DNA of 34,076 nucleotides from the NCBI GenBank assembly GCA_900298995.1, contig OMIC01000021.1, positions 1 to 34,076 of the forward strand, given 5' to 3'. Shown here in pieces: positions 4,995 through 21,909 of the stretch. A program made the translations under genes and the position numbers. How positions within the stretch are numbered: the stretch's first letter is position 1; each line of letters starts with the position of its first letter. The notes under the pieces are model-generated. The model did no database searches. It was not told the origin of the DNA and saw only the letters and a list, made by a program, of their open reading frames with translations. The DNA comes from Hyphomicrobiaceae bacterium (GTDB lineage Bacteria > Pseudomonadota > Alphaproteobacteria > Rhizobiales > Aestuariivirgaceae).

Positions 4995-5987
4995 ATGAAG
5001 GCCGTAAGACTCTATGCGGCAGGTGATCTCCGCGTCGAAACTGTTGCAGCGCCGGGCCCGCCCGCCCCACGCACAGTGACGCTTCGCATTATGGCAGCAG
5101 GCATCTGTGGATCCGACTTGCACAACTTTCGAACCGGCCAGTGGATCACGCGCAGTCCATCCATACCGGGTCATGAACTCATCGGCCGCGTCATTGCAGT
5201 AGGCGAAGGCGTTGACGATTTCGTCATCGGTGATCGCGTGGTGGCAGACTCCCGTTTCTGGTGCGGTGAATGCCCCGCCTGCATGAAAGGGAATTGCCAC
5301 CTCTGCAGTCGGCTGGGATTTGTAGGCGAGGTCTGCGACGGCGGATTTGCCGAAGAGGTCAACCTGCCCCATCGTCTGATCCACGCCCTGCCCCACACCC
5401 TGTCAGACGTTGCCGCCGTGATGGTGGAACCTGTCACTGTGGCACTCCACGCCGTCAACCGTCTTGCTGTTCCGCGCGATTGCCCGGTTCTCATCGCCGG
5501 TTGCGGGCCCATTGGCGGCCTTGCAGCCCTCGTCCTCTCAGAACATGGCCACAGCGACATCCGGGTAGCCGACCACAATGAGGAACGGCTGAAGCGCGTC
5601 TGCGACGTCACGGGCGCCGCAGCAGTTACGCTTGACCCCTCCTCCGCAGGCGCCGGCATTAGCCATGCCATTGAAGCCACCGGCAGCCCACGCGCCCTGG
5701 AACAACTCTTGAAGGCAGTTGAGCCGGGGGCAAGAATTTCCCTCGTGGGCATCATGCATGGCCGGTTGGATCTGGATCCGAACCTGCTAGTCGAGCGCGA
5801 GATCAGCTTGATTGGCTGTCATGCCTTTCAGGATGAACTGCCAAGCGCCATCGCCTTTCTCGAAACCTGCGATGACCGCGCCCGCCGCCTCGCCGATCAG
5901 GAAGTACCACTGGATGAGGTACCCGAGGCCTACCGAAGGTTGATTGCGGGGCAGGCAACCGGGCTAAAAACCATCGTCAAGCCCTGA
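4995..5987 (+). CDS. zinc-dependent medium-chain alcohol/polyol dehydrogenase
   Basis: A 330-residue MDR-family NAD(P)-dependent dehydrogenase. Catalytic zinc ligands are visible as Cys38 (GICGSD) and His60-Glu61 (PGHE). The structural zinc site is intact with Cys90, Cys93, Cys96 and Cys104. The cofactor domain has a GCGPIGGLAA glycine motif. It resembles L-idonate 5-dehydrogenase, sorbitol/butanediol dehydrogenase and threonine dehydrogenase, all of which oxidise a secondary alcohol next to another hydroxyl or amino group. The good ribosome site AAAGGGGGG lies just before ATG 4995, 15 bases after the SDR stop. Next to an SDR and acetoin-dehydrogenase-like genes, a role in turning an imported diol or sugar acid into a ketone is inferred. 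The substrate is not determinable. Confidence 0.87.
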   Translation: MKAVRLYAAGDLRVETVAAPGPPAPRTVTLRIMAAGICGSDLHNFRTGQWITRSPSIPGHELIGRVIAVGEGVDDFVIGDRVVADSRFWCGECPACMKGNCHLCSRLGFVGEVCDGGFAEEVNLPHRLIHALPHTLSDVAAVMVEPVTVALHAVNRLAVPRDCPVLIAGCGPIGGLAALVLSEHGHSDIRVADHNEERLKRVCDVTGAAAVTLDPSSAGAGISHAIEATGSPRALEQLLKAVEPGARISLVGIMHGRLDLDPNLLVEREISLIGCHAFQDELPSAIAFLETCDDRARRLADQEVPLDEVPEAYRRLIAGQATGLKTIVKP

Positions 5988-6127: not shown

Positions 6128-7144
6128 ATGAACGCCTTTGGCAGCATCAAGCCCAACGCCCGACCCTTCTATCAAAAACATTCAAGCGAAGAACTTCTGC
6201 AGGCGTTGCGCCGCATGTATCTCATTCGCCGTTTTGAGGAGGGCGCCGAGGAAGCCTATATGCGCGGCCTCATCCACGGCACCATGCATCTCTCGATCGG
6301 CCAGGAGGCCAGTGCAGTTGGCGCAACAATGGCGCTGCGCCGGTCCGATTACATCACCTCCACCCACCGCGGTCACGGACACTGCATCGGCAAGGGTGCG
6401 GACCCCAAACTGATGTTTGCCGAGTTCTTCGGCAAGGAAGAAGGCTACTGCCGGGGGCGTGGCGGCTCCATGCACATCGCCGACGTGGCGTCAGGCAATC
6501 TCGGCGCCAATGGCATCGTCGGCGGCGGGTTGCCCATTGCCGTGGGCGCCGCCCTCGCCATTCGCAAGAAGAAGCGCGACGACGTGGCCGTGTGCTTCTT
6601 TGGCGACGGCGCCTCGAACGAGGGCGCCTTTCACGAGTCCCTGAACATGGCATCGCTTTGGAAGCTGCCGGTCATCTTTGTCTGTGAGAACAACAAGTAT
6701 GGCATGTCTGTTTCAACCGAACGGTCCATGGCGGTTGCCAATGTTGCAGACCGCGCAGCCGCCTACAAAATGCCTGGCATCATCGTGGATGGAAATTCGA
6801 TTGCCGATGTCGCGGAGGCCGTGGCAGAAGCTGCTGCACGCGCGCGGCGTGGCGACGGTCCAAGTCTCGTCGAATGCAAGACCTACCGGACGCGCGGTCA
6901 TTCGCGCTCAGATCGCAACCGCTATCGCAGTAAGGAAGAAATCGAGGATTGGAAGGCACGCGATCCCATTCCCCGCTTTGAAGCTGAACTGAGGGCCTAT
7001 GGAGTTGCGGGCGAAGCCGCGCTCACGGCCATCCGCGAGTCGGCAGAAGCCGAAATTGCCGCTGCCATCGAATTTGCCCGCAACGGAACCGATCCCAACC
7101 CTGCTGACCTCATCCGCGATGTCCATTCGCCCAGGGCCGCCTGA
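6128..7144 (+). CDS. acoA: ThDP-dependent 2-oxo acid/acetoin dehydrogenase E1 component, alpha subunit
   Basis: A 338-residue alpha subunit of a two-gene E1 (acetoin dehydrogenase/PDH type). The ThDP-binding motif runs from GDG (159-161) to NN (188-189), with the intervening [17 protein letters not shown] matching the family. HRGHGH (80-85) and the loop [11 protein letters not shown] also match. E1 decarboxylates a 2-oxo acid or cleaves a hydroxyketone and passes the acyl group to the lipoyl arm of E2. It is the first gene after the promoter at 6042. Its stop TGA shares one base with the next ATG (TGATG), so it is translationally coupled to the beta subunit. AcoA is the closest name, but pyruvate or branched-chain specificity cannot be excluded from sequence alone. 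Confidence 0.88.
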
Positions 7145-8136
7145 TGACGGTACGCGAACTCACCTACGCCCAGGCTATTCAGGAAGCCCTGGCGCAGGCC
7201 ATGGACGCAGACCCTGACGTCTTTCTCATGGGAGAAGATATTGGCGTTTACGGTGGCGCCTTTCAGGTGACGGGAGATCTCGTTCAGCGATATGGCGAAG
7301 AGCGGGTCATGGATGCCCCCATCTCTGAACTGGGGCAGGCAGGGGTCGCCGTCGGCGCAGCGCTCGCAGGCTGCAAGCCGGTGCTTGAGTTTCAGTTTTC
7401 TGACTTCGCCACTCTGGCCATGGAGCAGATCGTCAATCAGGCTGCCAAACTGCGCTTCATGCTGGGTGGAAAGGTGAATGTACCGCTTGTGATGCGGCTT
7501 CCAGCCGGGTCCGGCACTGGCGCGGCGGCGCAACATTCGCAGTCCCTCGAGGCATGGTTTGCGCACGTCCCGGGGCTCAAGGTGGTACAGCCTTCAACTC
7601 CGGCAGATGCCAAAGGCATGCTCCTGGCGGCAATTGATGATCCCGACCCGGTAATGGTTTTTGAACACAAGCTTCTCTACAAGATGAAGGGCGAGGTTCC
7701 TGAACATCCCTATCGCGTACCAATCGGCAAAGCCCATGTGGCGCGCGAGGGCCGTCACGTCACGGTGGTCGCCACAGCAATCATGGTGCACCGCGCACTG
7801 GAAGCTGCCGACACACTTGCCACCGAAGGCATCGAAGCAGAGGTCATTGATCTTCGCAGCCTGCGTCCGATCGACACCGACACAATCGTCAGAAGCGTGC
7901 AGAAGACCACCCGCCTTGCCTGTGTCTATGAGGGCGTCAAGTCTCTGGGCATCGGAGCCGAGATCAGTGCACGCATTGCTGAGAGCGAGGCCTTCGACTA
8001 TCTGGATGCACCAATCATGCGGCTGGGTGGCGCCGAAGCGCCTATCCCCTATAATCCCACGCTCGAGAAGGCGGCGGTGCCGCAGGTTCCAGACATCGTC
8101 ACCGGACTCCGCAATCTGGTGAGCGGCCGCATCTGA
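7144..8136 (+). CDS. acoB: ThDP-dependent 2-oxo acid/acetoin dehydrogenase E1 component, beta subunit
   Basis: A 330-residue transketolase-like beta subunit. Landmarks are [11 protein letters not shown] near residue 30, the APISE segment whose Glu activates Th[21 protein letters not shown], and the C-terminal transketolase domain with [12 protein letters not shown]. It completes the alpha2beta2 E1 with the upstream product. It starts one base inside the alpha-subunit stop codon and ends one base before the ATG of the E2-like gene, a normal E1alpha-E1beta-E2 order. No dihydrolipoamide dehydrogenase (E3) gene lies in the locus, so the complex would borrow E3 encoded elsewhere. All expected family motifs are present. 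Confidence 0.88.
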
Positions 8137-8137
8137 C

Positions 8138-9193
8138 ATGGCTGTCGAGGTCATCCTTCCCCGCGTCGACATGGACATGACGAGCGGCATCATCAGCAAG
8201 TGGCATGCGCGCGCCGGAGACCGTGTGGTGCGGGGCTCAGCGCTGTTCGAGATCGAAACCGGCAAGGCCTCCATGGAGATCGACTCCCCCGCCGATGGGA
8301 TCCTCGACAACATCCTCGTGGTTGAAGGCGGTTCGGCACCGGTCGGGGTGGCAGTGGCCTATATCCTTGAGGAGGGTGAAACAACCGTCCAGATATCATC
8401 TAACAGTATTCGAACCTCCGAGCCTGTGCCCGAAACCGAGCGCCTCGAACACCCAACTGTGACACCCCTCATCCCGACAAGCATCGAAACATCAGCCAGC
8501 CAGGCACCTCGCGCCACCCCCCTTGCGCGCCGCCTCGCGCGGGAGGCTCGTCTTGAGCTCAAGACCATTTCTGGGACAGGCCCGCATGGCCGCATTACTG
8601 CCGAAGATGTACGCGGGGCAAACATGCATCCGCCACACAGCCAAATTCTGCTTAGTCTGAGCATGATCTGCCGCATGGACAGCCTGATCGATATCACGGA
8701 ACGTCTGAATGCCATCGCCCTCAGGACGCCGGGTGACCAAACCATATTGAAAATCACGCCTGAAGCCGTAGCCATCAAGGCATTGGCATTGGCAAGTCAG
8801 CGGCTGGACCATCCCTTGCTGACCCGAGCAAGCATCCGTCATGGATTCGGCCATATCCTGCCGAATGTCTCGGAACGCAGTCTCTCAGAGATCACGGGCT
8901 TACTGGAAACTCCAGACGCTTCCGGATCAGGAACGGCCGTGATCGCGGTTTGGCCCTTGTTCCAACAGGGCATCGAACAGGCCGCCATCCCATTCACACC
9001 GCCCGACATAGCAAGCCTGACAATGGGTGCCATCGTGGAGACTTTCGCTCCTGTCAACAGAGAGCCGGTCCTCGTTAAACAGATGATTTGCACCCTCCTC
9101 TGCGATTCTCGTTTGATCAGGCCCGATAAAGCCACCCAATTCCTCCAGTCCTTCCGCAGGCTGCTGGAAGACCCAGTACTGATGCTCGCATGA
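8138..9193 (+). CDS. E2-like lipoyl protein with a degenerate acyltransferase domain
   Basis: A 351-residue protein with the usual E2 domain order. The lipoyl domain is residues 1-80, with Lys43 as lipoylation site in EIETGKASME. A linker follows, then the E1/E3 subunit-binding domain at about 125-160 (TPLARRLARE...GPHGRITAEDV). The C-terminal acyltransferase-like domain (168-351) is about 40 residues shorter than usual. Its active-site motif, normally DHR-x2-DG, reads D323-S324-R325-L-I-R-P-D330-K, so the catalytic His is replaced by Ser and the DG pair is lost. The end (FLQSFRRLLEDPVLML) is still clearly family-like. The protein could serve as a swinging-arm carrier or scaffold without transferase activity, or be decaying. 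Alternatively, acyl transfer is done by another E2. Confidence 0.82.
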   Translation: MAVEVILPRVDMDMTSGIISKWHARAGDRVVRGSALFEIETGKASMEIDSPADGILDNILVVEGGSAPVGVAVAYILEEGETTVQISSNSIRTSEPVPETERLEHPTVTPLIPTSIETSASQAPRATPLARRLAREARLELKTISGTGPHGRITAEDVRGANMHPPHSQILLSLSMICRMDSLIDITERLNAIALRTPGDQTILKITPEAVAIKALALASQRLDHPLLTRASIRHGFGHILPNVSERSLSEITGLLETPDASGSGTAVIAVWPLFQQGIEQAAIPFTPPDIASLTMGAIVETFAPVNREPVLVKQMICTLLCDSRLIRPDKATQFLQSFRRLLEDPVLMLA

Positions 9194-9209: not shown

Positions 9210-10199
9210 ATGACGGACAATTCCTCAACTCGCAAGAGCCGTGCAGCGCTCACGTCCGAGCGGGGATCTGGCCGTGTGGCGCGCAACCGCATGCGCATTG
9301 CCTGGATGTATTATGTCGAAGGCCTCACGCAGAATGAAATTGCCGATCGACTGGGAATTGGCCGCATTACGGTAGTGCGAAACCTTAACGAGGCAATGCG
9401 ACAGCGCGAGGTCAAGATTTGGATCGAGGGTGAAGTCTCGGAGTGCTTTTCACTCGAAGCTGAATTGAAACATGCCTTTGGCCTCAAGGAGGCCGTGGTG
9501 GTGCCACAGCCGGTCAAGCCCGAAAACGTGACGAGATCGATCGGCGTTGCGACTGGCATGCATGTATCCGACCATCTCTCTGAGGGAATGACTGTCGGCG
9601 TGGGTTGGGGAGCAACACTATATGAGTCGCTCGCCACTCTGACACCTCGCGAAGCATCTGGCATGCAGGTAATCTCCCTTCTGGGCGGTATCGTCCAGGC
9701 ACGACGGTTCAATCCGGCAGAGTTCGCATGGCAATTCGCCCGGCTCATGGAAGCGGACTGCTACCTGTTTCAGGCGCCAGCCGTTGTTGATTCCCCGGCA
9801 ACACGGGACACGCTGATCGATCGGTGTGGGCTCAACGATATCATCCGCCGCGCCCAAAGCCTGGACCTTGCCCTGCTGAGCGTTGGCACAATGGCGGCCT
9901 CGTCAACCGCTTTCCGCTTCGAACTGATCAGCGCACAGGAACGGAATGAACTCTTGGAGCGCGGTGCCGTAGGTGATCTGCTCTACAACTTCTTCGATAT
10001 TGATGGACGTCTGGTCGACCACCCCGTGAATCGACGGGTTATGTCTGTACCCGTGGCGCAACTGCGCGACGTACCTACGCGGATCATTGCGTCAGGAGGT
10101 CAGGACAAGGTCGAAAGCCTGATGGGCGCCATCAGGCTGATCGACTGCAATGTGCTGGTAACCGATGAGGTCACCGCACGTTCGCTTTTGGACCGTTAG
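9210..10199 (+). CDS. SorC-family transcriptional regulator
   Basis: A 329-residue regulator with an N-terminal helix-turn-helix at about residues 31-62 (YYVEGLTQNEIADRLGIGR), then the large SorC/DeoR-type sugar-binding domain (GVGWGATLYESL, LLSVGTMAASST). Such proteins are controlled by phosphorylated sugars, polyols or related effectors and usually regulate the catabolic operon they sit beside. It lies 16 bases after the E2-like gene as last gene of the unit, so autoregulation through the dyad at 6048-6061 is plausible. A basic extension of about 25 residues precedes the HTH. Its stop codon overlaps the stop of the convergent gene that ends at 10196, leaving no space for an intergenic terminator. 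Confidence 0.87.
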   Translation: MTDNSSTRKSRAALTSERGSGRVARNRMRIAWMYYVEGLTQNEIADRLGIGRITVVRNLNEAMRQREVKIWIEGEVSECFSLEAELKHAFGLKEAVVVPQPVKPENVTRSIGVATGMHVSDHLSEGMTVGVGWGATLYESLATLTPREASGMQVISLLGGIVQARRFNPAEFAWQFARLMEADCYLFQAPAVVDSPATRDTLIDRCGLNDIIRRAQSLDLALLSVGTMAASSTAFRFELISAQERNELLERGAVGDLLYNFFDIDGRLVDHPVNRRVMSVPVAQLRDVPTRIIASGGQDKVESLMGAIRLIDCNVLVTDEVTARSLLDR

Positions 10200-12057: not shown

Positions 12058-12609
12058 TCAGCCCGCCCCCATCACTTGTGCCCATTCACATGCCAGAGGT
12101 GCCTGCCCCTTGGCGAGCGCCTCAGCCTGCGCCTGCTGGGCGGGCGTCATCCGGACCCAGAGGTCTGCGGCAGACTTGCCGCCGCCAGCCTCTCCCAGAC
12201 TGGCCGCGCGCTGATACCAGGCGTAGGAGATCGGCAGATTGGTGCGCGGGTCTGCTACTTTTGCAGCCCCCCGCCGCATCATGCGCGGGCCGGACACGAT
12301 ATCGCCCGAATAGATCTCGCCGAGCTTGAGTGCTGCAGGTGCATAATTCTGCGCAGCCGACCGGCACAGCCATGAAACCGATTGCTGAGTATTGTAAAAA
12401 CTGGGACCATCCTCATCCAGGGCGCAGCACAGGGATTTGCCAACCTTGTACTGTGCCTCGGCATTTCCGGCCTCTGCGGCCGCCATGTTGGCTTCCGCCT
12501 CGGCCTTGTCCCTTGCAATGCTCGCACCCTCGATTGCTACCCCGGCGCAACCGGCCAGCAGCAGCGCCATTGCCACCACCGTGGCCTTCGCCCATACATT
12601 GCGTATCAT
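12058..12609 (-). CDS. Sel1-like repeat lipoprotein
   Basis: A 183-residue outer-envelope lipoprotein. From the ATG at 12609 the protein begins MIRNVWAKATVVAMALLLAGC, a lipoprotein signal peptide with lipobox LAGC at Cys21. A longer in-frame start at 12756 would bury this signal and overlap the divergent transferase gene, so 12609 with its upstream GGGGACG is preferred. The mature part has an Ala/Glu-rich helix, then GNAEAQYKVGKSLCC, APAALKLGEIYSGD and AYAWYQRAASLGEAGG-like units, the signature of Sel1/TPR-type short repeats that mediate protein contacts. An RMTPAQQAQAEALA helix closes it. The partner is unknown. Confidence 0.72.
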   Translation of the reverse strand: MIRNVWAKATVVAMALLLAGCAGVAIEGASIARDKAEAEANMAAAEAGNAEAQYKVGKSLCCALDEDGPSFYNTQQSVSWLCRSAAQNYAPAALKLGEIYSGDIVSGPRMMRRGAAKVADPRTNLPISYAWYQRAASLGEAGGGKSAADLWVRMTPAQQAQAEALAKGQAPLACEWAQVMGAG

Positions 12610-12704
12610 CCGCGTCCCCGCCCCATCGCCTTGTGAATCACTCGCTGGCATTGTGCACAGGCCGGGATTGGCGCGGCATCCGTAAAGACACGCAGGAGAG
12701 ACCA

Positions 12705-13649
12705 ATGCAGCCGCCACCCGGCAACCGCCACGCCAAATATGATGCGCTGATCGCAAGGGCCGCGGCGCTGGGTCCGGCAGTCACCGTGATCGCCCATCCC
12801 TGTGACGCGGCCTCGCTGGAAGCCGCCGCCGGAGCCGCCGGACTGGGTTTGATCACGCCCGTGCTGGTGGGGCCCCGGCACAAGATCGAGGTCGCCGCCA
12901 ATCAGGCCGGGGTGCCAATCAGCAGCTTTCGCCTTGTCGATGCGCCCCACAGCCATGCCGCCGCCGCCCAGTCCGTGGCCATGATCCGGATGGGCGAGGC
13001 TTCCCTGCTCATGAAAGGCAGCCTGCACACCGATGAATTGATGCACGAGGTGACGGCCTCGGAGACCGGGCTTCGCACCGAACGGCGTGTCAGCCATGTC
13101 TATGTTATGGACGTGCCCACCTATGGCGAGTTGCTGTTCATCACCGACGCCGCCATCAATATCTTTCCCGATCTCGACGCCAAGGCCGACATCGTCCGCA
13201 ACGCCATTGACCTTCACCACCAGATCGGGCTCGGCACGCCACGCGTCGCCATCCTGTCGGCGGTGGAAACCGTAACCAGAAAAATCCCCTCCACGATCGA
13301 GGCGGCGGCCCTGTGCAAGATGGCGGACCGCGGCCAGATCACGGGTGGGCTTGTCGACGGCCCACTGGCCTTCGACAACGCCATCGACATGGAAGCGGCG
13401 CGAATGAAGGACATCCGATCAGAAGTTGCAGGCCGCGCGCAGATCCTCGTCGTTCCCGATCTCGAGGCCGGCAACATGCTTGCCAAGAACCTCACCTTCC
13501 TCGCAGGCGCAGATGCCGCCGGTGTGGTTGCCGGCGCCCGTGTGCCGATCGTGCTGACCTCACGAGCGGACTCGCCGCGCGCCCGCATGGCTTCTTGCGC
13601 AATTGCCGTGCTGGCGGCCGAAGCACGCCGCCGCCAACCTTCCGTCTGA
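12705..13649 (+). CDS. phosphate acetyl/butyryltransferase (PTA/PTB domain)
   Basis: A 314-residue enzyme of the Pta/Ptb fold, which interconverts acyl-CoA plus phosphate with acyl-phosphate plus CoA. The ATG at 12705 has AGGAG at 12694-12698; an upstream extension of the frame to 12330 overlaps the lipoprotein gene and is not credible. Family segments include LLMKGSLHTDELMHEV, RRVSHVYVMDVP, ITDAAINIFPDL, GLVDGPLAFDNA and VVPDLEAGNMLAKNLTFLAGA. It resembles the C-terminal half of the bifunctional enoyl-CoA hydratase/phosphate acetyltransferase proteins. The usual acetate or butyrate kinase partner is not adjacent, so it stands alone here. Whether it takes acetyl-CoA made by the E1/E2 locus is speculation. 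Confidence 0.85.
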   Translation: MQPPPGNRHAKYDALIARAAALGPAVTVIAHPCDAASLEAAAGAAGLGLITPVLVGPRHKIEVAANQAGVPISSFRLVDAPHSHAAAAQSVAMIRMGEASLLMKGSLHTDELMHEVTASETGLRTERRVSHVYVMDVPTYGELLFITDAAINIFPDLDAKADIVRNAIDLHHQIGLGTPRVAILSAVETVTRKIPSTIEAAALCKMADRGQITGGLVDGPLAFDNAIDMEAARMKDIRSEVAGRAQILVVPDLEAGNMLAKNLTFLAGADAAGVVAGARVPIVLTSRADSPRARMASCAIAVLAAEARRRQPSV

Positions 13650-14630: not shown

Positions 14631-15005
14631 TTACTCCGTGCCTGCCGCTTTCAGTTGCACGCTCTCGCCGCAGCCACAGGCCGAGACCTGATTGGGGTTG
14701 TTGAACACGAATCCCGACTTCAGCGTTGTGCTCTGGTAGTCCATCTCCGTGCCCAGCAGGAACATCATGGCCTTGGCGTCGATCAGCACCTGGACGCCCT
14801 TGTCTTCCACCACCTCATCGAAAGGCTTTCGGTCCTCGGCCCATTCCAGCGTATATTCCATGCCGGCGCAGCCACCGTTCTTGACCCCGACGCGCAAGCC
14901 GGCCACCGGCTTGTCGGACGCCGCCATGATTTCCCTCACTCGGTCTGCGGCCGCGTCGGTCAGTGTCATGATCTGGGGGCGCGGGCGCGGCGTTGCGGTA
15001 GCCAT
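14631..15005 (-). CDS. sufA: A-type Fe-S carrier SufA
   Basis: A 124-residue HesB/IscA-type protein that accepts Fe-S clusters from the SufBCD scaffold and hands them to apo-enzymes. The three ligand cysteines are present: one in KNGGCAGMEY and the pair in ACGCGES near the C-terminus, the invariant C-x(60-65)-C-x-C pattern. The ATG at 15005 (MATATPRP) has AAGGAGAAGG upstream and fits the family. A longer frame to 15131 runs into sufT and is rejected. It is the last gene of the suf operon, 10 bases after sufT. Confidence 0.93.
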   Translation of the reverse strand: MATATPRPRPQIMTLTDAAADRVREIMAASDKPVAGLRVGVKNGGCAGMEYTLEWAEDRKPFDEVVEDKGVQVLIDAKAMMFLLGTEMDYQSTTLKSGFVFNNPNQVSACGCGESVQLKAAGTE

Positions 15006-15015
15006 GACCTTCTCC

Positions 15016-15396
15016 TTACCACATGTTGAGGGCGACGCGGGCCTCATCCGACATGCGGCTGTGGTCCCACGGAGGGTCGAAGACAATTGTGGCGCGGGCG
15101 CTCTTGACGCCCGGGACGACGGAAACGGCATTCTCCACCCAGCCCGGCATGTCGCCAGCGACAGGGCAACCAGGTGCTGTCAGGGTCATCTCGATGGCCA
15201 CATTGCGCTCATCATCGATGTCAACCTTGTAAACCAGACCCAGTTCGTAGATATCGACCGGTATTTCGGGGTCATAGACGGTCTTGAGCGCAGCCACGAT
15301 GTCATCCGTCAGCCGCGCCAGTTCATCCGCCGGAATGGCGGAGGGGTTCGGCGCTTCAGTGGCCTTGGTCTCAGGCGCGGCAGCGACATCCGTCAT
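15016..15396 (-). CDS. sufT: SUF system maturation protein SufT (MIP18/DUF59)
   Basis: A 126-residue DUF59 protein with a flexible Ala/Pro-rich N-terminus (1-25) and the conserved core DPEIPVDIYELGLVYKV, then TLTAPGCPVAGDMPGWVENAV. That core contains the invariant Cys thought to take part in Fe-S handling. SufT helps mature Fe-S proteins under high Fe-S demand. Its start overlaps the sufS stop (ATGA), so the genes are translationally coupled. The order sufS-sufT-sufA is common in alphaproteobacteria. Confidence 0.92.
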   Translation of the reverse strand: MTDVAAAPETKATEAPNPSAIPADELARLTDDIVAALKTVYDPEIPVDIYELGLVYKVDIDDERNVAIEMTLTAPGCPVAGDMPGWVENAVSVVPGVKSARATIVFDPPWDHSRMSDEARVALNMW

Positions 15397-16613
15397 GCGA
15401 AGATCCTCCGGGCCGCGATGAGCGCATCAGCCAAAGCATCGGCTTCTTCCAGGGTGTTGTACATGGCAAAGGAGGCGCGGCAGGTTGCTGTCAGGCCGAA
15501 GCGCTGCAGCAGCGGCTGGGTGCAATGCGTTCCCGCCCGCACGGCAACACCTGAACGGTCGATCACGGTGGCAACGTCATGCGCATGCGCCCCCTCCATG
15601 GTGAAGGACAGGATCGCGCCCTTGTTGCGCGCCCGACCGACCAGCCGCAGCGAATTGATGGCCGAGAGGCGCTCGGTGGCATGATCGCGCAGCTTCGCCT
15701 CATGGGCGGCAATGGCCTCGAGACCGATGCACCGCATGTAGTCGAGGGCAGCCCCAAGGCCGATGGCCTGGACGATTGCCGGAGTACCAGCCTCAAAACG
15801 ATGCGGCGGATCGTTGTAGGTGATCGTCTCTGTTGTCACCTCGGATATCATCTCGCCCCCGCCCTGATAGGGCGGCATGCGCGACAGCAGGGCCTTCTTC
15901 CCGTACAAGACACCGATCCCCGTGGGGCCATAGGTCTTGTGGCCGGTAAAGACATAGAAATCAGCGTCGAGCGCCTGCACATCGACCGCCATGTGCACTG
16001 TTGCCTGCGAACCATCCACCAGCACCGGAATGCCGCGCGCATGTGCGAGCCGGATGACCTCCGCCACCGGCACGATGGTGCCGAGCGCATTGGACATCTG
16101 GGTTATGGCAACGATCCTGGTCCGGGGCGTCAGTAGCTTCTCGAATTCTTCGAGCAGGAGATTGCCATCACCATCGACGGGGATCCACTTCAGAACCGCG
16201 CCACGCCGCTCACGGTGAAAATGCCATGGTACGATGTTTGAATGATGTTCGAGAATGGAGAGGACAATTTCATCCCCCTCTCCGATGCTCATGCCCCCGA
16301 AGCTTTGCGCCACGAGGTTGATGGCCTCCGTTGCATTGCGGGTAAAGATGATTTCATCCGCCGAAGCGGCATTGAGAAAACGCCGCACACTCTCACGCGC
16401 CGCCTCAAAAGCCTCGGTTGCCGCATTCGACAGAAAATGCAGTCCTCGGTGAACATTGGCATAGCCTTCCGTGTAGGCGCGCGTCATGGCCTCCAGAACC
16501 GGCTTCGGCTTCTGGGCCGAGGCCGCGTTGTCGAGATAGACGAGCGGCTTGCCATAGACCTCGCGGCCCAGGATTGGGAAGTCGCGCCGGATCGCCGCAA
16601 CGTCGTAAGCCAT
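15393..16613 (-). CDS. sufS: cysteine desulfurase SufS
   Basis: A 406-residue PLP enzyme, class-II cysteine desulfurase. It removes sulfur from L-cysteine as an enzyme persulfide for cluster assembly. The PLP lysine is in FTGHKTYGPTGIGVLYG, and the persulfide Cys is in RAGTHCTQP near residue 357, with the short loop typical of SufS rather than IscS. YLDNAASAQKP at the N-terminus also matches. No SufE gene is seen; a partner may lie elsewhere. The ATG shares one base with the sufD stop (TGATG), and the 3' end overlaps sufT. Confidence 0.94.
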   Translation of the reverse strand: MAYDVAAIRRDFPILGREVYGKPLVYLDNAASAQKPKPVLEAMTRAYTEGYANVHRGLHFLSNAATEAFEAARESVRRFLNAASADEIIFTRNATEAINLVAQSFGGMSIGEGDEIVLSILEHHSNIVPWHFHRERRGAVLKWIPVDGDGNLLLEEFEKLLTPRTRIVAITQMSNALGTIVPVAEVIRLAHARGIPVLVDGSQATVHMAVDVQALDADFYVFTGHKTYGPTGIGVLYGKKALLSRMPPYQGGGEMISEVTTETITYNDPPHRFEAGTPAIVQAIGLGAALDYMRCIGLEAIAAHEAKLRDHATERLSAINSLRLVGRARNKGAILSFTMEGAHAHDVATVIDRSGVAVRAGTHCTQPLLQRFGLTATCRASFAMYNTLEEADALADALIAARRIFA

Positions 16614-17785
16614 CAGCTGGCCCTCCGGTGCTGGGTGAGCCAGTGTGCCGCAAAGGCCGTCAGTGCCTCGCGCAATCCGTCATGGTGAATAGTCTCGAAA
16701 GCTTCACCCGCAAAGGCAGCAATCAACAAGGCCTTGGCCTCAGCCTCGGGAATGCCCCGTGACTTCAGATAAAAGAGATGGTCGTGGTTCAGTTCACCCG
16801 CCGTCGCGCCATGCCCACAAGCCACATCATCCGCGTAGATTTCAAGTTCAGGCTTCGCATCGAACTCTGCGGTGCCAGACAGCAAAAGCGCATGACTCGA
16901 CTGCTTCCCGTCTGTCTTTTGTGCTCCGGGCCGCACGATCACCTTGCCCTGGAATATCCCGCGTGCCTGCTCACCCAACACGCACTTGAACAACTCGCGG
17001 CTCACGCAATTGGCAAGTTGATGATCGACGACAAGGCGGGTGTCTGCGTGCTGGCGTCCAGCCAGCAGATAGGCGCCCGAAACACGCGCGTCGGCATATT
17101 CGCCCGCGAAGCGATAGGTACCATTCTGGCGGTTCACCCGCGCACCAGTCGTTAGTGTAAAGTCACGCAACGTCGCGCTATGTGCCAGCGTGACATCGGC
17201 ATGCGCGAGATGCGTCGCACCAGGCGCCTCGATTTCCGATTTCACCCTGTCGAGCCGCGCACCGTGTCCGACCCGGATTTCAGTGATGCTGCTGGACAGA
17301 TAGGTTCCCGCGCCGAGATGGGTCTCGATCAGGGTGGCAGAAGAATTGTCCGCGACCTCGATCACGTTGTGTGTAGCCAGCATCCGTGGCGCAGCATCGG
17401 TTGCAATGAACACCAGCTCCACCGGCGTGTCGGTATTTCCCTCGAATTTCAGCCGCGCACCATCGGTTGCAAAGGACGTATTCAGGCGTACCAGCGGATC
17501 TTCCATCGGAATTCGGGACTCAACCCATCCATTGGCCATCCTGGAGTGGGCTGCATCATACTCACCGTTCACGAACACCATGCGGGTCGCGGCAACATTG
17601 CGGAACAAGGAGGATGCAAGCAACCTTTCCACATCGCCAGCCGCGGCCACCTCCTTCTGCCGGGGCGGATAGGGCCTGTCGACGAGTTGGCGCAAATCAG
17701 TCCAGCGCCATTCCTCCATGCGCCTGTGCGGCAGGTCAAACCCAAGAGCCTGCTCGGCTTCGGTGCGTACAGGCAGGGCGTTCAT
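16613..17785 (-). CDS. sufD: Fe-S assembly protein SufD
   Basis: A 390-residue right-handed beta-helix protein, partner of SufB in the SufBC2D scaffold. The C-terminal family segment is clear: RPGAQKTDGKQSSHALLLSG, then AKPELEIYADDVACGHGATAGELNHDHLFYLKSRGIPEAEA, with the conserved His of the CGHGA motif near the position needed for cluster assembly with SufB. The N-terminal part (RRMEEWRWTDLRQL) is the usual helical region. The ATG overlaps the sufC stop by four bases (ATGA). Confidence 0.93.
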   Translation of the reverse strand: MNALPVRTEAEQALGFDLPHRRMEEWRWTDLRQLVDRPYPPRQKEVAAAGDVERLLASSLFRNVAATRMVFVNGEYDAAHSRMANGWVESRIPMEDPLVRLNTSFATDGARLKFEGNTDTPVELVFIATDAAPRMLATHNVIEVADNSSATLIETHLGAGTYLSSSITEIRVGHGARLDRVKSEIEAPGATHLAHADVTLAHSATLRDFTLTTGARVNRQNGTYRFAGEYADARVSGAYLLAGRQHADTRLVVDHQLANCVSRELFKCVLGEQARGIFQGKVIVRPGAQKTDGKQSSHALLLSGTAEFDAKPELEIYADDVACGHGATAGELNHDHLFYLKSRGIPEAEAKALLIAAFAGEAFETIHHDGLREALTAFAAHWLTQHRRAS

Positions 17786-18543
17786 GCGGCGTCCTTGGAG
17801 AATTCGGCGTAGCCTTTTGCTTCCAGCTCCCGCGCCAGACCCTTGTCGCCCGATTTCACGATCCGGCCAGCGGAGAGCACATGAACAAAATCCGGCACGA
17901 TATAGTCGAGTAGTCGCTGATAATGGGTAATCACGATCATCGCGCGATCAGGTGACCGCAAGGCGTTGACACCATCGGCAACAACCCGCAGCGCGTCGAT
18001 GTCGAGGCCGGAGTCAGTCTCGTCCAGGATGCACAGTGACGGCTCCAGCACAGCCATCTGGAGAATTTCAGCCCTTTTCTTTTCGCCACCGGAAAAGCCG
18101 ACATTGACCGGCCGCTTCAGCATGTCCTGCGTCACATTCAGCTTTGCCGCCCGATCCTTTACCAGCCGCATGAAATCCGGTGTGGAGAGTTCCTTCTCGC
18201 CACGCGCCTTGCGCTGGGCGTTGAGAGCCACCTTGAGAAACTGCATGGTGGCAACACCGGGGATTTCAATCGGGTACTGGAACGCGAGGAACACACCCTT
18301 CGCGGCGCGCATTTCCGGAGCCATTTCGAGAAGGTCCTCTCCCTTGAACGTGACGGACCCTTCTGTGACCTCGTATCCTTCCCGCCCGGACAGTACATAG
18401 GACAGCGTCGACTTCCCAGAACCGTTCGGGCCCATGATCGCGTGCACCTCGCCCGGTTTCACGGAAAGCGTGAGACCGCGCAGGATCTCGCGGTCCTCAT
18501 CCTCAAGCTTCACATGAAGGTTCTTGATATCAAGCAGGTTCAC
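17782..18543 (-). CDS. sufC: Fe-S assembly ATPase SufC
   Basis: A 253-residue ABC-type ATPase that drives conformational change of the SufBCD scaffold. Motifs: Walker A GPNGSGKSTL, a Q-loop in FLAFQYPIEIPGV, the SufC-type signature FSGGEKKRAEI, Walker B CILDETDSGLD and switch His ITHYQRLL. The start is taken as GTG at 18543 (VNLLDIKNLHVKLED) because it gives the family length and has GAGG about 8 bases upstream. The longer frame to 18609 would run into the preceding small gene. That ribosome site overlaps the stop of the 62-residue gene, so the two are coupled. Confidence 0.92.
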   Translation of the reverse strand: MNLLDIKNLHVKLEDEDREILRGLTLSVKPGEVHAIMGPNGSGKSTLSYVLSGREGYEVTEGSVTFKGEDLLEMAPEMRAAKGVFLAFQYPIEIPGVATMQFLKVALNAQRKARGEKELSTPDFMRLVKDRAAKLNVTQDMLKRPVNVGFSGGEKKRAEILQMAVLEPSLCILDETDSGLDIDALRVVADGVNALRSPDRAMIVITHYQRLLDYIVPDFVHVLSAGRIVKSGDKGLARELEAKGYAEFSKDAA

Positions 18544-18553
18544 GGTTCTTGCC

Positions 18554-18742
18554 TCAATTTGTGGTAATAAACTTGTAGCCCAGTGTGATGATGCCAAGGC
18601 CGATGGCACCCTTCAAACCGTCTGCCGCAGCTTTCGCTACTGCTTGCGACACTCCAGCCCTGGCATACTGGCTGTAACGGAACACCGCGAAAACCAACCC
18701 AAGGCCCACAGGTAACGCAAGATCCAGAAAGGTGAGCGTCAT
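18554..18742 (-). CDS. 62-residue membrane protein embedded in the suf operon
   Basis: A small gene between sufB and sufC. Its ATG overlaps the sufB stop by four bases (ATGA), and its stop overlaps the sufC ribosome site, so its place in the operon is very tight. The protein has two hydrophobic helices, about 5-21 ([17 protein letters not shown]) and 44-60 ([14 protein letters not shown]). Between them is a mostly alanine/lysine amphipathic stretch with one Tyr-Ser-Gln-Tyr turn. I do not recognise a family. Possible roles are membrane anchoring of the SufBCD complex or an unrelated function carried along by the operon. No Cys is present, so direct cluster binding is unlikely. Confidence 0.75.
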
Positions 18743-20253
18743 CCGACACTTCCTTCCAGCGAGATACCGATGAGCTTCTGCGTCTCAGCCATGAATTCCA
18801 TCGGAAGCTGCTGCAACACATCGCGCACGAAGCCATTGACGATCAGCGCCACGGCCTCTTCCTGAGAAAGACCGCGTGACATGCAGTAGAACATCTGGTC
18901 GTCCGAGATCTTCGATGTTGTGGCTTCATGCTCGAACTGCGCGGTGGATGTCTTGGACTCGATATAGGGAACGGTGTGCGCACCGCATTTGTCGCCGATG
19001 AGAAGGGAGTCGCACTGCGTGAAGTTACGTGAATTGATGGCCTTGCGGTGTGCAGACACCAATCCGCGATAGGTGTTTTCCGAACGGCCGGCTGCTATGC
19101 CCTTGGAAATGATGCGGCTTGAGGTGTTGCGGCCGAGATGGATCATCTTGGTACCGGAATCGACTTGCTGACGCCCATTGGAAATGGCGATGGAGTAGAA
19201 CTCGCCACGCGAGTCATCCCCCCGGAGGATGCAGCTCGGATATTTCCACGTGATGGCCGAACCTGTTTCAACCTGCGTCCACGAAATCTTCGAACGGGAA
19301 CCACGGCAATCGCCGCGCTTGGTCACGAAGTTGTAAACGCCGCCCTTGCCCTCGGCATCGCCGGGATACCAGTTTTGAACCGTCGAATACTTGATCTCTG
19401 CATCGTCCAGCGCGACCAGCTCGACAACAGCGGCGTGGAGCTGGCTTTCCTCTCGCATTGGCGCGGTGCAACCTTCGAGATAGGAGACATAAGAGCCCTT
19501 GTCGGCGATGATGAGGGTGCGTTCGAATTGCCCGGTGTTCTTGGCGTTCATCCGGAAATAGGTCGAGAGTTCCATCGGGCAGCGAACGCCGGGCGGCACA
19601 TACACGAAGGAGCCGTCCGAAAACACCGCCGAATTGAGCGCGGCGTAGTAATTGTCGGTTTGAGGCACGACGGAGAAGAGATACTTCTTCACCAGGTCCG
19701 GATGCTCGCGCAGCGCCTCAGAGATTGAACAGAAGATCACGCCGGCCTTTGCCAGCTCCGCCTTGAAGGTCGTCACGACCGAGACCGAGTCGAACACGGC
19801 GTCGACAGCGACCTTGCCAGAGGCGTATTCACCGCCCGCTTCGTCAAGTTCACTCCGCTCGCCCTGCTTTCTTACACCCGCAAGGATTTCCTGCTCCTTC
19901 AGTGGAATGCCAAGCTTGGCGTAGGTTTCAAGAAGCTTGGGGTCCACCTCATCGAGGCTCTTTGGAGCGGACACCCCCTTCGGCGCCGCGTAGTAGTAGA
20001 TATCCTGGAAATCGATCCGCGGGTAATCGACCCGCGCCCATGTCGGCTCCTCCATGGTCAGCCAGCGGCGATAGGTCTCGAGGCGCGCCTCCAGCATCCA
20101 GCCGGGCTCGTTCTTCTTTTTCGAGATGAAGCGGACAGTGTCCTCGCTGAGGCCCTTGGGTGCAAACTCAGCTTCAATGTCGGTCGTGAAACCGTATTTG
20201 TACTTGTCGACGTCAATGTCCTTGACGAGTTCGATTGTCTCAACCTCTGCCAT
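18739..20253 (-). CDS. sufB: Fe-S cluster scaffold protein SufB
   Basis: A 504-residue scaffold subunit on which the new cluster is built with SufC and SufD. Family marks include [18 protein letters not shown], the [10 protein letters not shown] stretch with a conserved Cys, and the core [22 protein letters not shown]. The C-terminus reads [19 protein letters not shown]. Several conserved Cys and the Glu of the catalytic pair are kept. Length is slightly above the usual 480-500 because of a normal N-terminal segment. It starts six bases after the NifS-like gene, and its stop overlaps the next small gene. Confidence 0.95.
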
Positions 20254-20259
20254 GATGCC

Positions 20260-21348
20260 TCAAGCCGCTGCTCTGGCCTTGTGGCGCAGAACGACCTTGC
20301 GCCACGCCGCGATGAATTTGTCGATGTGCTGATCGGTCGTATCCCATCCCAGTGATACGCGAATTGCAGCGTTGGAGATTTCCGCCGGCACGCCCATGGC
20401 GGCCAGAACATGCGATTTCGCCACTTTTCCGGAAGAGCATGCCGAGCCGGAAGAAACCGATACGCCCTCAAGATCCAGCGCCATCAGAAGCGTTTCCGCG
20501 CTCATGCCGGGAGCCGCGATACAACTGGTATTGGGGAGCCGGCTTGCTCCAGCCCCGAGGACCACCACGTCCTCCAGGCTGGCCTCCAGCCTGTCGCGCA
20601 GACCTGCGACATCTCCCATGGCCGCCCCCGCCACGGCGCCGAATCCCGCCACAGCGGCGACATTCTCGGTGCCGGCCCGGCGGCGCAGTTCCTGGCCGCC
20701 GCCATGGATGAAGGGCGGCATGGGCAACCCGTCACGCAGCACAAGCGCACCTGCTCCAATCGGACCGCCGAGCTTGTGGGCGGACAACGTCATCAGATCC
20801 ACGCCCAAAATCCCGAAATTGACCGGGATCTTGCCAAGGGCCTGCACGGCATCGCTGTGAACGCGCGCGCCATGGGCCTGCGCGAGACGGACAGTGTCGG
20901 CGACCGGCTGGAGGACACCCGTCTCGTTGTTGGCGAGCATGAGACTGACAAGCGCAGTCGGGCCACTTGCCAGCAGACGCTCCAGAACCGCGAGATCCGC
21001 AATACCGCGACCATCCACGGGCAGCAATTCGACGGTCCTGCCCGAGGCTCTGGCCGCTTCCAGCACGGAAGGATGCTCGACCGCCGAAATGATCAGTCGT
21101 TCGGCCGGCACGCCCTTGATGGCCATGTTGTTGGCTTCGCTGCCGCCAGACGTGAACACCACCATCGGTGCGATCACTCCGACCGCGCGCGCAACCTGAT
21201 CGCGCGCCGTTTCAAGACGCTGCCGCGCCGCCCGGCCTTCGGCATGAACCGAGGATGCGTTGCCAGCCGGACCCATGGCCTCCAGCATCGCCGCCTTCGC
21301 CTCGGGGCGGAGCGGTGAGGTGGCGTTATGGTCGAGATAGGCTCTCAC
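20260..21348 (-). CDS. NifS/IscS-type cysteine desulfurase
   Basis: A 362-residue PLP-dependent class-I cysteine desulfurase, different from SufS in the same operon. YLDHNATSPLRPEA opens the protein. PLP binding is through the Lys in SAHKLGGPIGAG, and the active-site Cys is in SVSSGSACSSGKV near residue 305, in the long flexible loop typical of NifS/IscS. It supplies sulfur to Fe-S assembly or to other acceptors such as tRNA thiolation. Its ATG overlaps the iscR stop (ATGA), and sufB follows after six bases, so it is an integral second gene of the operon. Confidence 0.93.
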   Translation of the reverse strand: MRAYLDHNATSPLRPEAKAAMLEAMGPAGNASSVHAEGRAARQRLETARDQVARAVGVIAPMVVFTSGGSEANNMAIKGVPAERLIISAVEHPSVLEAARASGRTVELLPVDGRGIADLAVLERLLASGPTALVSLMLANNETGVLQPVADTVRLAQAHGARVHSDAVQALGKIPVNFGILGVDLMTLSAHKLGGPIGAGALVLRDGLPMPPFIHGGGQELRRRAGTENVAAVAGFGAVAGAAMGDVAGLRDRLEASLEDVVVLGAGASRLPNTSCIAAPGMSAETLLMALDLEGVSVSSGSACSSGKVAKSHVLAAMGVPAEISNAAIRVSLGWDTTDQHIDKFIAAWRKVVLRHKARAAA

Positions 21349-21815
21349 GCCATGGCCCCCTCGGGATGACGGTCCTTGGTCTGCTTGATGGCGGCGGCGA
21401 GAGCGAGGTTGCGCTTCTCAACCACATCTTCGAGTGAAATCGATGACAGGAAATACATCATCTGGCGGCCGAGGCTCGACCACAGGTCATGGGCGTTGCA
21501 GCGGTCGCCCTTGACGCAGCCCTCGACGGCATCTCCGCCGCAGCGTGTGAACTGCACCTCTTCGTCTACGGCGGCTATGATTTCGGCTACGGCAATGTCA
21601 TTCATGGCACGCGCCAGGCGGTAGCCCCCGCCGGGTCCGCGGGCGCTTTCGACCAACCCCGCCTTGCGCAGCCGGCCGAACAATTGCTCGAGATATTCGT
21701 GACTTATGTCCTGCCGCTCAGCGATTTCGGCAAGCGACACGGGCGCGCCGCGCGAGTGCACGGCGATGTCGATCATCGCCATCACGCCATAGCGCCCCTT
21801 GGTGCTCATCTTCAT
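21345..21815 (-). CDS. iscR: Rrf2-family Fe-S-sensing regulator IscR
   Basis: A regulator of about 156 residues with an N-terminal winged helix (MSTKGRYGVMAMIDIAVH, then SLAEIAERQDISHEYLEQLF). It also has a cluster-binding loop with three Cys and one His: C-x7-C-x5-C-x2-H in the RCGG...CVKGDRCNAH stretch. This matches the ligand set of E. coli IscR except for a longer first spacing. It is expected to repress the operon when loaded with a [2Fe-2S] cluster. Starts at 21815 or 21809 are equally possible; an ORF start at 21860 is too long. As first gene downstream of the IscR-like box it would be autoregulated. The protein is not RirA-like, since the sequence around the winged helix and Cys loop is of IscR type. 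Confidence 0.88.
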   Translation of the reverse strand: MKMSTKGRYGVMAMIDIAVHSRGAPVSLAEIAERQDISHEYLEQLFGRLRKAGLVESARGPGGGYRLARAMNDIAVAEIIAAVDEEVQFTRCGGDAVEGCVKGDRCNAHDLWSSLGRQMMYFLSSISLEDVVEKRNLALAAAIKQTKDRHPEGAMA

Positions 21816-21909
21816 CTGTCGCCGCCCGCATCCAACTGCACGAAATCCTTGATTTTTCACCCCTCACCCGTGCTAAAGGCGAGACGGCGCGGCGGGTTGA
21901 CCCTGCCAG

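Follow-up and report, generated by a model that had tools for sequence, protein, structure and literature searches.

In the textbook 2-oxo acid dehydrogenase complexes, the acyltransferase and the lipoyl arm are carried on one chain and coupled to E1. Human PDHX has a Ser at the position of the catalytic His. As described in the available part of PMC10156792, the E3-binding proteins (PDHX and the fungal protein X) keep an E2-like domain order but are inactive; the animal proteins lack the catalytic histidine and the fungal ones have a reduced, acyltransferase-derived domain. The C-terminus of the AcoC-type E2 of acetoin dehydrogenases is likewise no working 2-oxoacid acyltransferase but an alpha/beta-hydrolase.

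The locus studied here lies in a stretch of 34,076 nucleotides, hereafter the window, from a genome of the genus Aestuariivirga (Aestuariivirgaceae). It encodes an E2-derived protein beside its E1 genes, which the initial annotation regarded as a selected carrier with an erased acyltransferase active site rather than the result of random decay. A search of the open-access literature yielded no description of a bacterial E2 of this kind, nor of E1 operons in which the lipoyl protein stands alone.

Domain organization of the E2-derived protein

The E2-derived frame starts directly after the stop codon of E1 beta (Table 1). It comprises 351 codons in a single open frame, with none of the stop codons or frameshifts of a pseudogene. 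The entire protein is covered by a single tblastn match without a change of frame, so that its length changes are in frame and a frameshift or mis-called start is ruled out.

Table 1. Features of the E1-E2 locus and its neighbourhood in the window
Feature	Positions	Strand	Evidence
Zinc-type alcohol dehydrogenase upstream of E1	4995..5987	+	Pfam; locus comparison
E1 alpha, 338 aa, conserved	6128..7144	+	PF00676 E 3e-90; invariant columns
E1 beta, 330 aa, conserved	7144..8136	+	PF02779/PF02780; invariant columns
E2-derived protein (lipoyl, subunit-binding and reduced acyltransferase-derived domains), 351 aa	8138..9193	+	ORF list, Pfam, alignments, tblastn
Lipoyl domain, residues 1-80; K43 lipoyl-lysine codon 8264-8266	8138..8377	+	Pfam PF00364 at residues 4-76
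Peripheral subunit-binding (E3-binding) domain, residues 124-159	8507..8614	+	Pfam PF02817 E 2.4e-15
Reduced acyltransferase-derived domain, residues 166-351, non-catalytic by sequence	8633..9190	+	Partial PF00198 match, invariant columns, model and fold search
Lost SNLG motif site, reads AVWP, residues 270-273	8945..8956	+	Alignments
Degenerate DHRxxDG motif DSRLIRP, residues 323-329	9104..9124	+	Sequence and alignment
E2-regulator junction, 16 nt; PfkB-family kinase gene here in L060, L065	9194..9209	+	Locus comparison
SorC/DeoR-type sugar-binding regulator	9210..10199	+	PF04198; orthologues in sister clusters

Both N-terminal domains, previously judged to look functional, are retained. The lipoyl domain scores above the PF00364 cut-off, has K43, the lysine of the DKA-type turn, and keeps 27 of the 30 columns that are invariant among the orthologues, with 3 changed; PF02817 identifies the peripheral subunit-binding domain expected of an E2, and the linker/subunit-binding region (residues 81-164) keeps 14 of 14 such columns. 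The lipoyl domain is nevertheless not wholly intact. Indeed, the Asp beside the lipoyl lysine, invariant in 15/15 orthologues, is Gly in the window (residue 42, positions 8261-8263). In the Bacillus stearothermophilus E2, according to the available part of PMC6270654, every substitution of D41 lowered reductive acylation while lipoylation still occurred; by analogy, D42G may make acylation of the window lipoyl arm slow.

The C-terminal part is not a complete acyltransferase domain of a 2-oxo acid dehydrogenase E2. The acyltransferase profile PF00198 is matched only at its positions 168-231/232, over residues 287-350, and this match, though incomplete, is above the Pfam cut-off (36.6 bits vs 23). 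The shortness of the domain holds up: from the Pro-His pair to the end it counts 186 residues, whereas 14 of the 16 orthologues have 208 (the two exceptions are one truncated at a contig end and one without the marker motif), and alignments show that the helix MRRxIAxRL preceding the Pro-His pair and part of DVGVAV..GG are deleted. Sequence and alignment also confirm the reported motif, D323-S-R-L-I-R-P-D-K, in which the catalytic His has become Ser (Ser324) and the Asp and Gly have become Arg and Pro. The Ser/Thr of SNLG is equally absent (AVWP). DHRxxDG is kept in all 15 aligned orthologues that extend into the acyltransferase domain. It is also seen in 19 of the 23 homologous loci surveyed, including the genome's own OGDH E2; the remaining four are the window, counted twice, one contig end and the genome's own PDH E2, which reads DHRCIDG. 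Judged from these residues, the acyltransferase has almost certainly been lost in this lineage and is dead in cis.

An AlphaFold model of the monomer, built with 34 homologues, predicts a reduced E2-core fold with block pLDDT of 81-94 at residues 291-351 and a weak region (50-82) at residues 231-290. The best solved matches of this model in Foldseek are E2 proteins and cores. The single-sequence model, made without homologues, is uninformative (pLDDT 38 at the C-terminus), and the predicted fold of the reduced domain leans on the intact homologues.

Selective constraint on E1 and on the two halves of E2

Comparison with 16 orthologues revealed that the E1 genes beside the reduced E2 are intact, as proposed, with 160/161 invariant columns kept in E1 alpha and 202/203 in E1 beta. 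In the acyltransferase domain of the window protein, only 23 of 89 orthologue-invariant columns are kept, 40 being substituted and 26 deleted; in a leave-one-out control, four intact orthologues had 0-3 invariant columns changed per protein. The lipoyl domain and residues 81-164 together keep 41/44 columns, whereas the C-terminus keeps 23/89, indicating that the two halves of E2 are under different selection. A similar gradient is observed in identities to the seven closest relatives (L059-L062, L064-L066), which amount to 81-87% for E1 alpha, 88-89% for E1 beta and 71-78% for the lipoyl domain, but only to 25-31% and 43-47% for two parts of the acyltransferase domain; as a control, L059 and the other six relatives share 70-91% over the same parts. 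The placement of the window in the E1 tree is weakly supported (41).

A branch codon model was applied to nine taxa, with sucCD as control genes; it assumes stationary composition, and the third-position GC of the window genes is lower than that of their relatives. Purifying selection on E1 is undiminished on the window branch, omega being 0.034 there vs 0.036 in the background (2dlnL 0.05), and sucCD gave 0.029 on the window branch vs 0.034 elsewhere. The acyltransferase domain is strongly relaxed, with an omega estimate that depends on the synonymous clock used. When dS is set to the value of the neighbouring E1 genes, omega is 0.48, neutrality being rejected by 20 lnL and the one-ratio model by 72 lnL. 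With free dS, omega is 0.25 and the neutral model worse by 4 log units, though the free-dS fits of this and the lipoyl domain are saturated or poorly identified, and for the acyltransferase domain an optimiser failure left the two-ratio fit 0.1 lnL lower than the one-ratio fit. With the dS of sucCD, omega rises to 0.95 and neutrality is not rejected. The initial annotation had named a dN/dS near 1 as the mark of simple decay; the first two estimates lie away from this value, the third does not. We prefer the E1 clock since the synonymous length of the domain is 1.0-1.26 times that of E1 on five other terminal branches. On the window branch, the E1/sucCD synonymous-length ratio is 1.9 vs 1.1-1.65 on five others, so the E1 clock may be long and the domain omega somewhat above 0.48. 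The lipoyl domain is also accelerated with the E1 dS (omega 0.12 vs 0.03), with no difference when dS is free.

Drift was then simulated from three intact orthologue starts to the observed divergence (d 0.4), with prior constrained divergence included. The C-terminal frame stayed open in 2-6% of these runs (P 0.02-0.06), and in 5-9% at d 0.3. Of the changed hydrophobic columns, 69% are still hydrophobic in the window protein vs 46-51% under drift (P 0.0025-0.011 at d 0.4); the signal is weaker at d 0.3 (P 0.005-0.037, up to about 0.04). When all hydrophobic columns are counted, P ranges from 0.0075 to 0.034 at d 0.4 and from 0.077 to 0.18 at d 0.3. In the same simulations, polar columns showed no significant retention beyond drift (P 0.12-0.35). 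Simulations omitting the prior constrained divergence are less cautious and are not those relied on; they gave P(no stop) of 0.006-0.044 at 0.45-0.57 substitutions/site (starts L059, L061, L065) and, from the starts L059 and L060, hydrophobic P of 0.0000-0.0013. Against the latter, the 90%-invariant columns of the C-terminus are kept at the drift rate (0.40 vs 0.38-0.39 simulated). Since conserved positions were lost at the drift rate while the hydrophobic pattern was held, constraint seems to have been lifted from the catalytic residues but to persist in part on the fold. Pure drift of the acyltransferase domain looks unlikely, as both the open frame and the hydrophobic pattern argue against it.

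Relatives, operon context and other E1 sets

To find relatives, the E2 protein was run against 61 genomes and E1 beta against the 37 of the genus, while the C-terminal part alone served as query for 397 genomes of the order (E <= 1e-12, a cut-off that a more distant reduced form would escape); a named genome collection was also searched. A full-length E1 beta match of at least 73% identity is present in 24 of the 37 genomes of the genus, own included. No second genome with a reduced acyltransferase domain was found with the C-terminal query at E <= 1e-12 among the 396 other genomes of the order; five of them match, and all five E2s keep the motif. The suggested search for other E2s with a residue other than His at this site thus gave none in those 396 genomes at this cut-off, and no other Ser variant occurred among the best 80 of 229 loci from the named collection, some of which duplicate contigs already present among the other genome loci. 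Of these 80, 41 have DHRxxDG, 12 are truncated by the end of their contig, 2 carry a frameshift and the other 25 have full length but a different C-terminus; the latter were judged AcoC-type from their last 60 residues, one of them (L126) being checked by Pfam.

A homologue of the same length that kept the motif would have pointed to a local error, but none was found: the only short hit, L013 (355 aa), contains a run of N and was discarded. L008, on the same contig as L123, is cut by the contig end. Two further short E2s from other genera of Hyphomicrobiales, L156:4001-4594 and L177:4001-4981, have DHRAVDG in another frame and were set aside as frameshift-interrupted copies.

The surroundings of the operon vary between relatives. 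In L060, the order is DRL (a DXR-II-like oxidoreductase, PF21135), E1 alpha, E1 beta, E2, PfkB-family kinase and, further on, the regulator; in L065, alcohol dehydrogenase, E1, E1, E2, kinase and regulator follow each other, which is the window order plus the kinase. The DRL gene lies between alcohol dehydrogenase and E1 in L060 and is missing there in L065. Transporter genes were also seen by eye in the clusters of L062 and L067. DRL matches of at least 70% and PfkB matches of at least 72% each occur in 23 of the 37 genomes of the genus (two partial in each case). The own genome has neither orthologue, only paralogues of 56% and 48% being found, and the ancestral pathway is thus incomplete in the window lineage. 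Its E1 must therefore serve something else or a remnant of that route. Two other genomes combine an intact E2 with the apparent lack of one of these genes: searches of G011 (87% complete) gave no DRL orthologue, and those of G020 (99% complete) none of PfkB. The window alcohol dehydrogenase shares 68% identity with that of L060 vs 85% for L065, and the regulator 75% vs 91%, whereas the transporter binding protein shares 93% vs 92%.

E1/E2 sets of this kind are known for acetoin-type cleavage. Based on DXR-II chemistry (in the available part of PMC3847144), our guess by analogy is that degradation of a branched or 1-deoxy sugar is the role of the ancestral operon. The L060 cluster (L060:6179-16798), which joins DRL, the E1/E2 set, the PfkB kinase and the SorC-type regulator, is possibly a route for a branched/1-deoxy sugar such as methylerythritol. 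Downstream in the window lie a phosphate acetyl/butyryl transferase gene (12330-13649) and an iron-sulphur (Suf) cluster (14631-21860).

The own genome, a 2.99 Mb draft in 58 contigs of which the window is C21, has five E1 alpha genes, and that of the window is a distinct paralogue with 43-48% identity to the other four. Four kinds of lipoyl partner accompany them: a normal E2, that of PDH (C32), lipoyl-hydrolase proteins (C19, C37), the window protein and, on C24, a stand-alone lipoyl protein of 80 aa. An E3 gene, recognised by eye from its sequence, adjoins PDH. The C24-type operon is composed of E1 alpha, E1 beta, the 80-aa stand-alone lipoyl protein, a class II aldolase and a lipoate-ligase-like gene (L084:9149-13003, i.e. 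G000:C24:33148-37002; also L220-L224, L226). Eight such loci were examined, the own one and seven others from about ten E1 beta rows at 41-44%; seven share this order including the lipoate-ligase-like gene, and in the eighth the contig ends after E1 beta. With one Shinella query in tblastn, no acyltransferase was found in any of the eight stretches. Because C24-type loci recur without an acyltransferase, an E1 with a transferase-free carrier appears, from gene content, to be an arrangement already existing in the genus. The stand-alone lipoyl type is rare outside the genus at E <= 1e-12: among the matches listed for 150 genomes drawn from the order, only the own lipoyl frame is so short.

Plasmids of Shinella, Rubrobacter and Sphingobium also carry E1, E1 and a lipoyl protein. 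On the Shinella plasmid (L228:4966-10600), E2 is split between two genes, one for an 80-aa lipoyl protein and the other for a 225-aa acyltransferase (DHRALDG), with a lipoyl synthase and a sugar-binding regulator nearby. On the plasmid of the actinobacterium Rubrobacter (L229:2721-5042), E1 alpha is 71% identical to that of Aestuariivirga C24, an identity that suggests transfer between phyla.

Competing explanations and comparison with known systems

The window protein derives from the ordinary E2 of the E1 alpha, E1 beta and E2 operon present in most Aestuariivirga genomes. Its C-terminal acyltransferase has lost, in frame, the catalytic residues and about 45 residues of the fold, whereas selection continued to act on E1 and on the two N-terminal domains, lipoyl and subunit-binding. 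In our leading explanation, to which we give an even chance, the protein has been kept as a lipoyl carrier and scaffold that is acylated by E1 and unloaded in trans. With the E2 gene presumably expressed and K43 lipoylated, E1 would acylate the lipoyl arm, and the acyl group would pass to the catalytic domains of another E2 in the cell, that of PDH or OGDH; unloading of such a carrier is probably in trans. Candidate partners encoded in the genome are the PDH E2 (DHRCIDG), the OGDH E2 (DHRIVDG) and the two lipoyl-hydrolase proteins. Alternatively, an AcoC-type alpha/beta-hydrolase E2 could free the acyl group, the alpha/beta-hydrolase ABHD11 being described in the available part of PMC12643935 as hydrolysing acyl-lipoyl (glutaryl). 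E3 would re-oxidise the arm. The carrier is weakened by its occurrence in one genome, the two missing pathway orthologues, the clock-dependent omega, the acceleration of the lipoyl domain with the E1 dS, D42G, the homologue-dependent model and the drift statistics, which lose strength at lower divergence. In addition, the His375Ala exchange in E. coli E2o costs 54-fold (available part of PMC5986005), so that transfer may survive the loss of the His by itself.

The main rival explanation is decay in progress of an operon that ceased to serve its old pathway after the loss of DRL and PfkB, with E2 dying from its C-terminus, its frame open by luck, short time or translation coupling to the regulator, and E1 kept for an E2-independent reason, e.g. 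as a free ThDP decarboxylase or carboligase. This is a serious possibility, although we would not expect it to be the case. Besides the missing orthologues, it is favoured by the lipoyl domain, which carries D42G and is also accelerated with the E1 dS, by the greater divergence of the alcohol dehydrogenase and regulator (the transporter binding protein excepted), by a first-position GC of 0.58 in the C-terminal part vs 0.64-0.71 in E1, by the single occurrence among 397 genomes of the order (E <= 1e-12), by the omega obtained with the sucCD clock and by a probability of an open frame that is not negligible. However, the contrast in invariant columns between the N-terminal regions and the C-terminus and the hydrophobic pattern held beyond drift speak against it, and loss of pathway genes need not bring loss of E2, since G011 and G020 keep theirs intact. 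The earlier preference for a selected carrier stands as far as random decay of the whole gene is concerned, which the in-frame damage, the hydrophobic pattern, the retained lipoyl and subunit-binding domains and selection on E1 make unlikely; the single genome limits the rest. An analogue of the E3-binding protein, whose reduced C-terminus would bind another E2 core such as that of PDH and recruit E1 or E3 as in fungi and mammals, would account for an order of domains, a missing catalytic His and a C-terminal reduction like those described in the available part of PMC10156792, and the linker and subunit-binding region has kept all its invariant columns. We find it improbable, as the gene sits in its own E1 operon rather than with PDH and its E1 is a distinct paralogue. 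The single genome and the draft assembly could also raise the question of an assembly or sequencing artefact. It seems very improbable in view of the continuous frame, the correct operon joints, a third-position GC of 0.65 in the C-terminal part (0.66-0.70 in E1) and homology searches in which no chimera partner was seen.

If the carrier explanation is extended to the genus, the window protein could be an E2 caught midway in its conversion to a transferase-free carrier and the C24 operon the finished, conserved form, both discharged in trans, so that in-cis coupling of E1 and E2 would be optional in this class. We regard this as a speculative proposal that is rather doubtful.

Among known systems, the operon of the Aestuariivirga relatives is the closest in descent: the E2 occupies the orthologous position and can be aligned with the window protein over the full length of the lipoyl and subunit-binding domains, but in the relatives the catalytic motif and the core of 208 residues are preserved, and many have the PfkB kinase and DRL within the operon or nearby. 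The AcoC-type E2 also has lipoyl and subunit-binding domains beside E1 genes; its C-terminus is an alpha/beta-hydrolase (Pfam; L126, L085, L086), whereas that of the window is an acyltransferase remnant. No hydrolase family was found in the window protein by Pfam at E <= 0.001, and NCBIfam PRK14875 matches it only at residues 2-163. The stand-alone lipoyl operons of Aestuariivirga C24 and of the Shinella, Rubrobacter and Sphingobium plasmids share an E1 with a lipoyl protein devoid of acyltransferase, but this protein has about 80 aa and no subunit-binding domain and its E1 is a different paralogue. Shinella has a separate acyltransferase gene, unlike the eight C24-type loci examined, in which none was found.

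The nearest parallel to the loss of the acyltransferase in a single lineage, within a preserved E1-E2 set, is the eukaryotic E3-binding protein. The window protein has the domain order and the inactive domain by which that protein is described (available part of PMC10156792). The eukaryotic protein resides inside PDH beside an active E2, whereas the window protein is the sole E2 of its operon, E2s of PDH and OGDH with intact motifs being encoded elsewhere in the genome. A bacterial E2 without transferase but with a constrained E1 would parallel the E3-binding protein, and would make testable the passage of an acyl group from the lipoyl arm of one complex to the core of another. The second E1 operon of the genus, conserved in the loci examined and having a lipoyl protein without transferase, sharpens this question.
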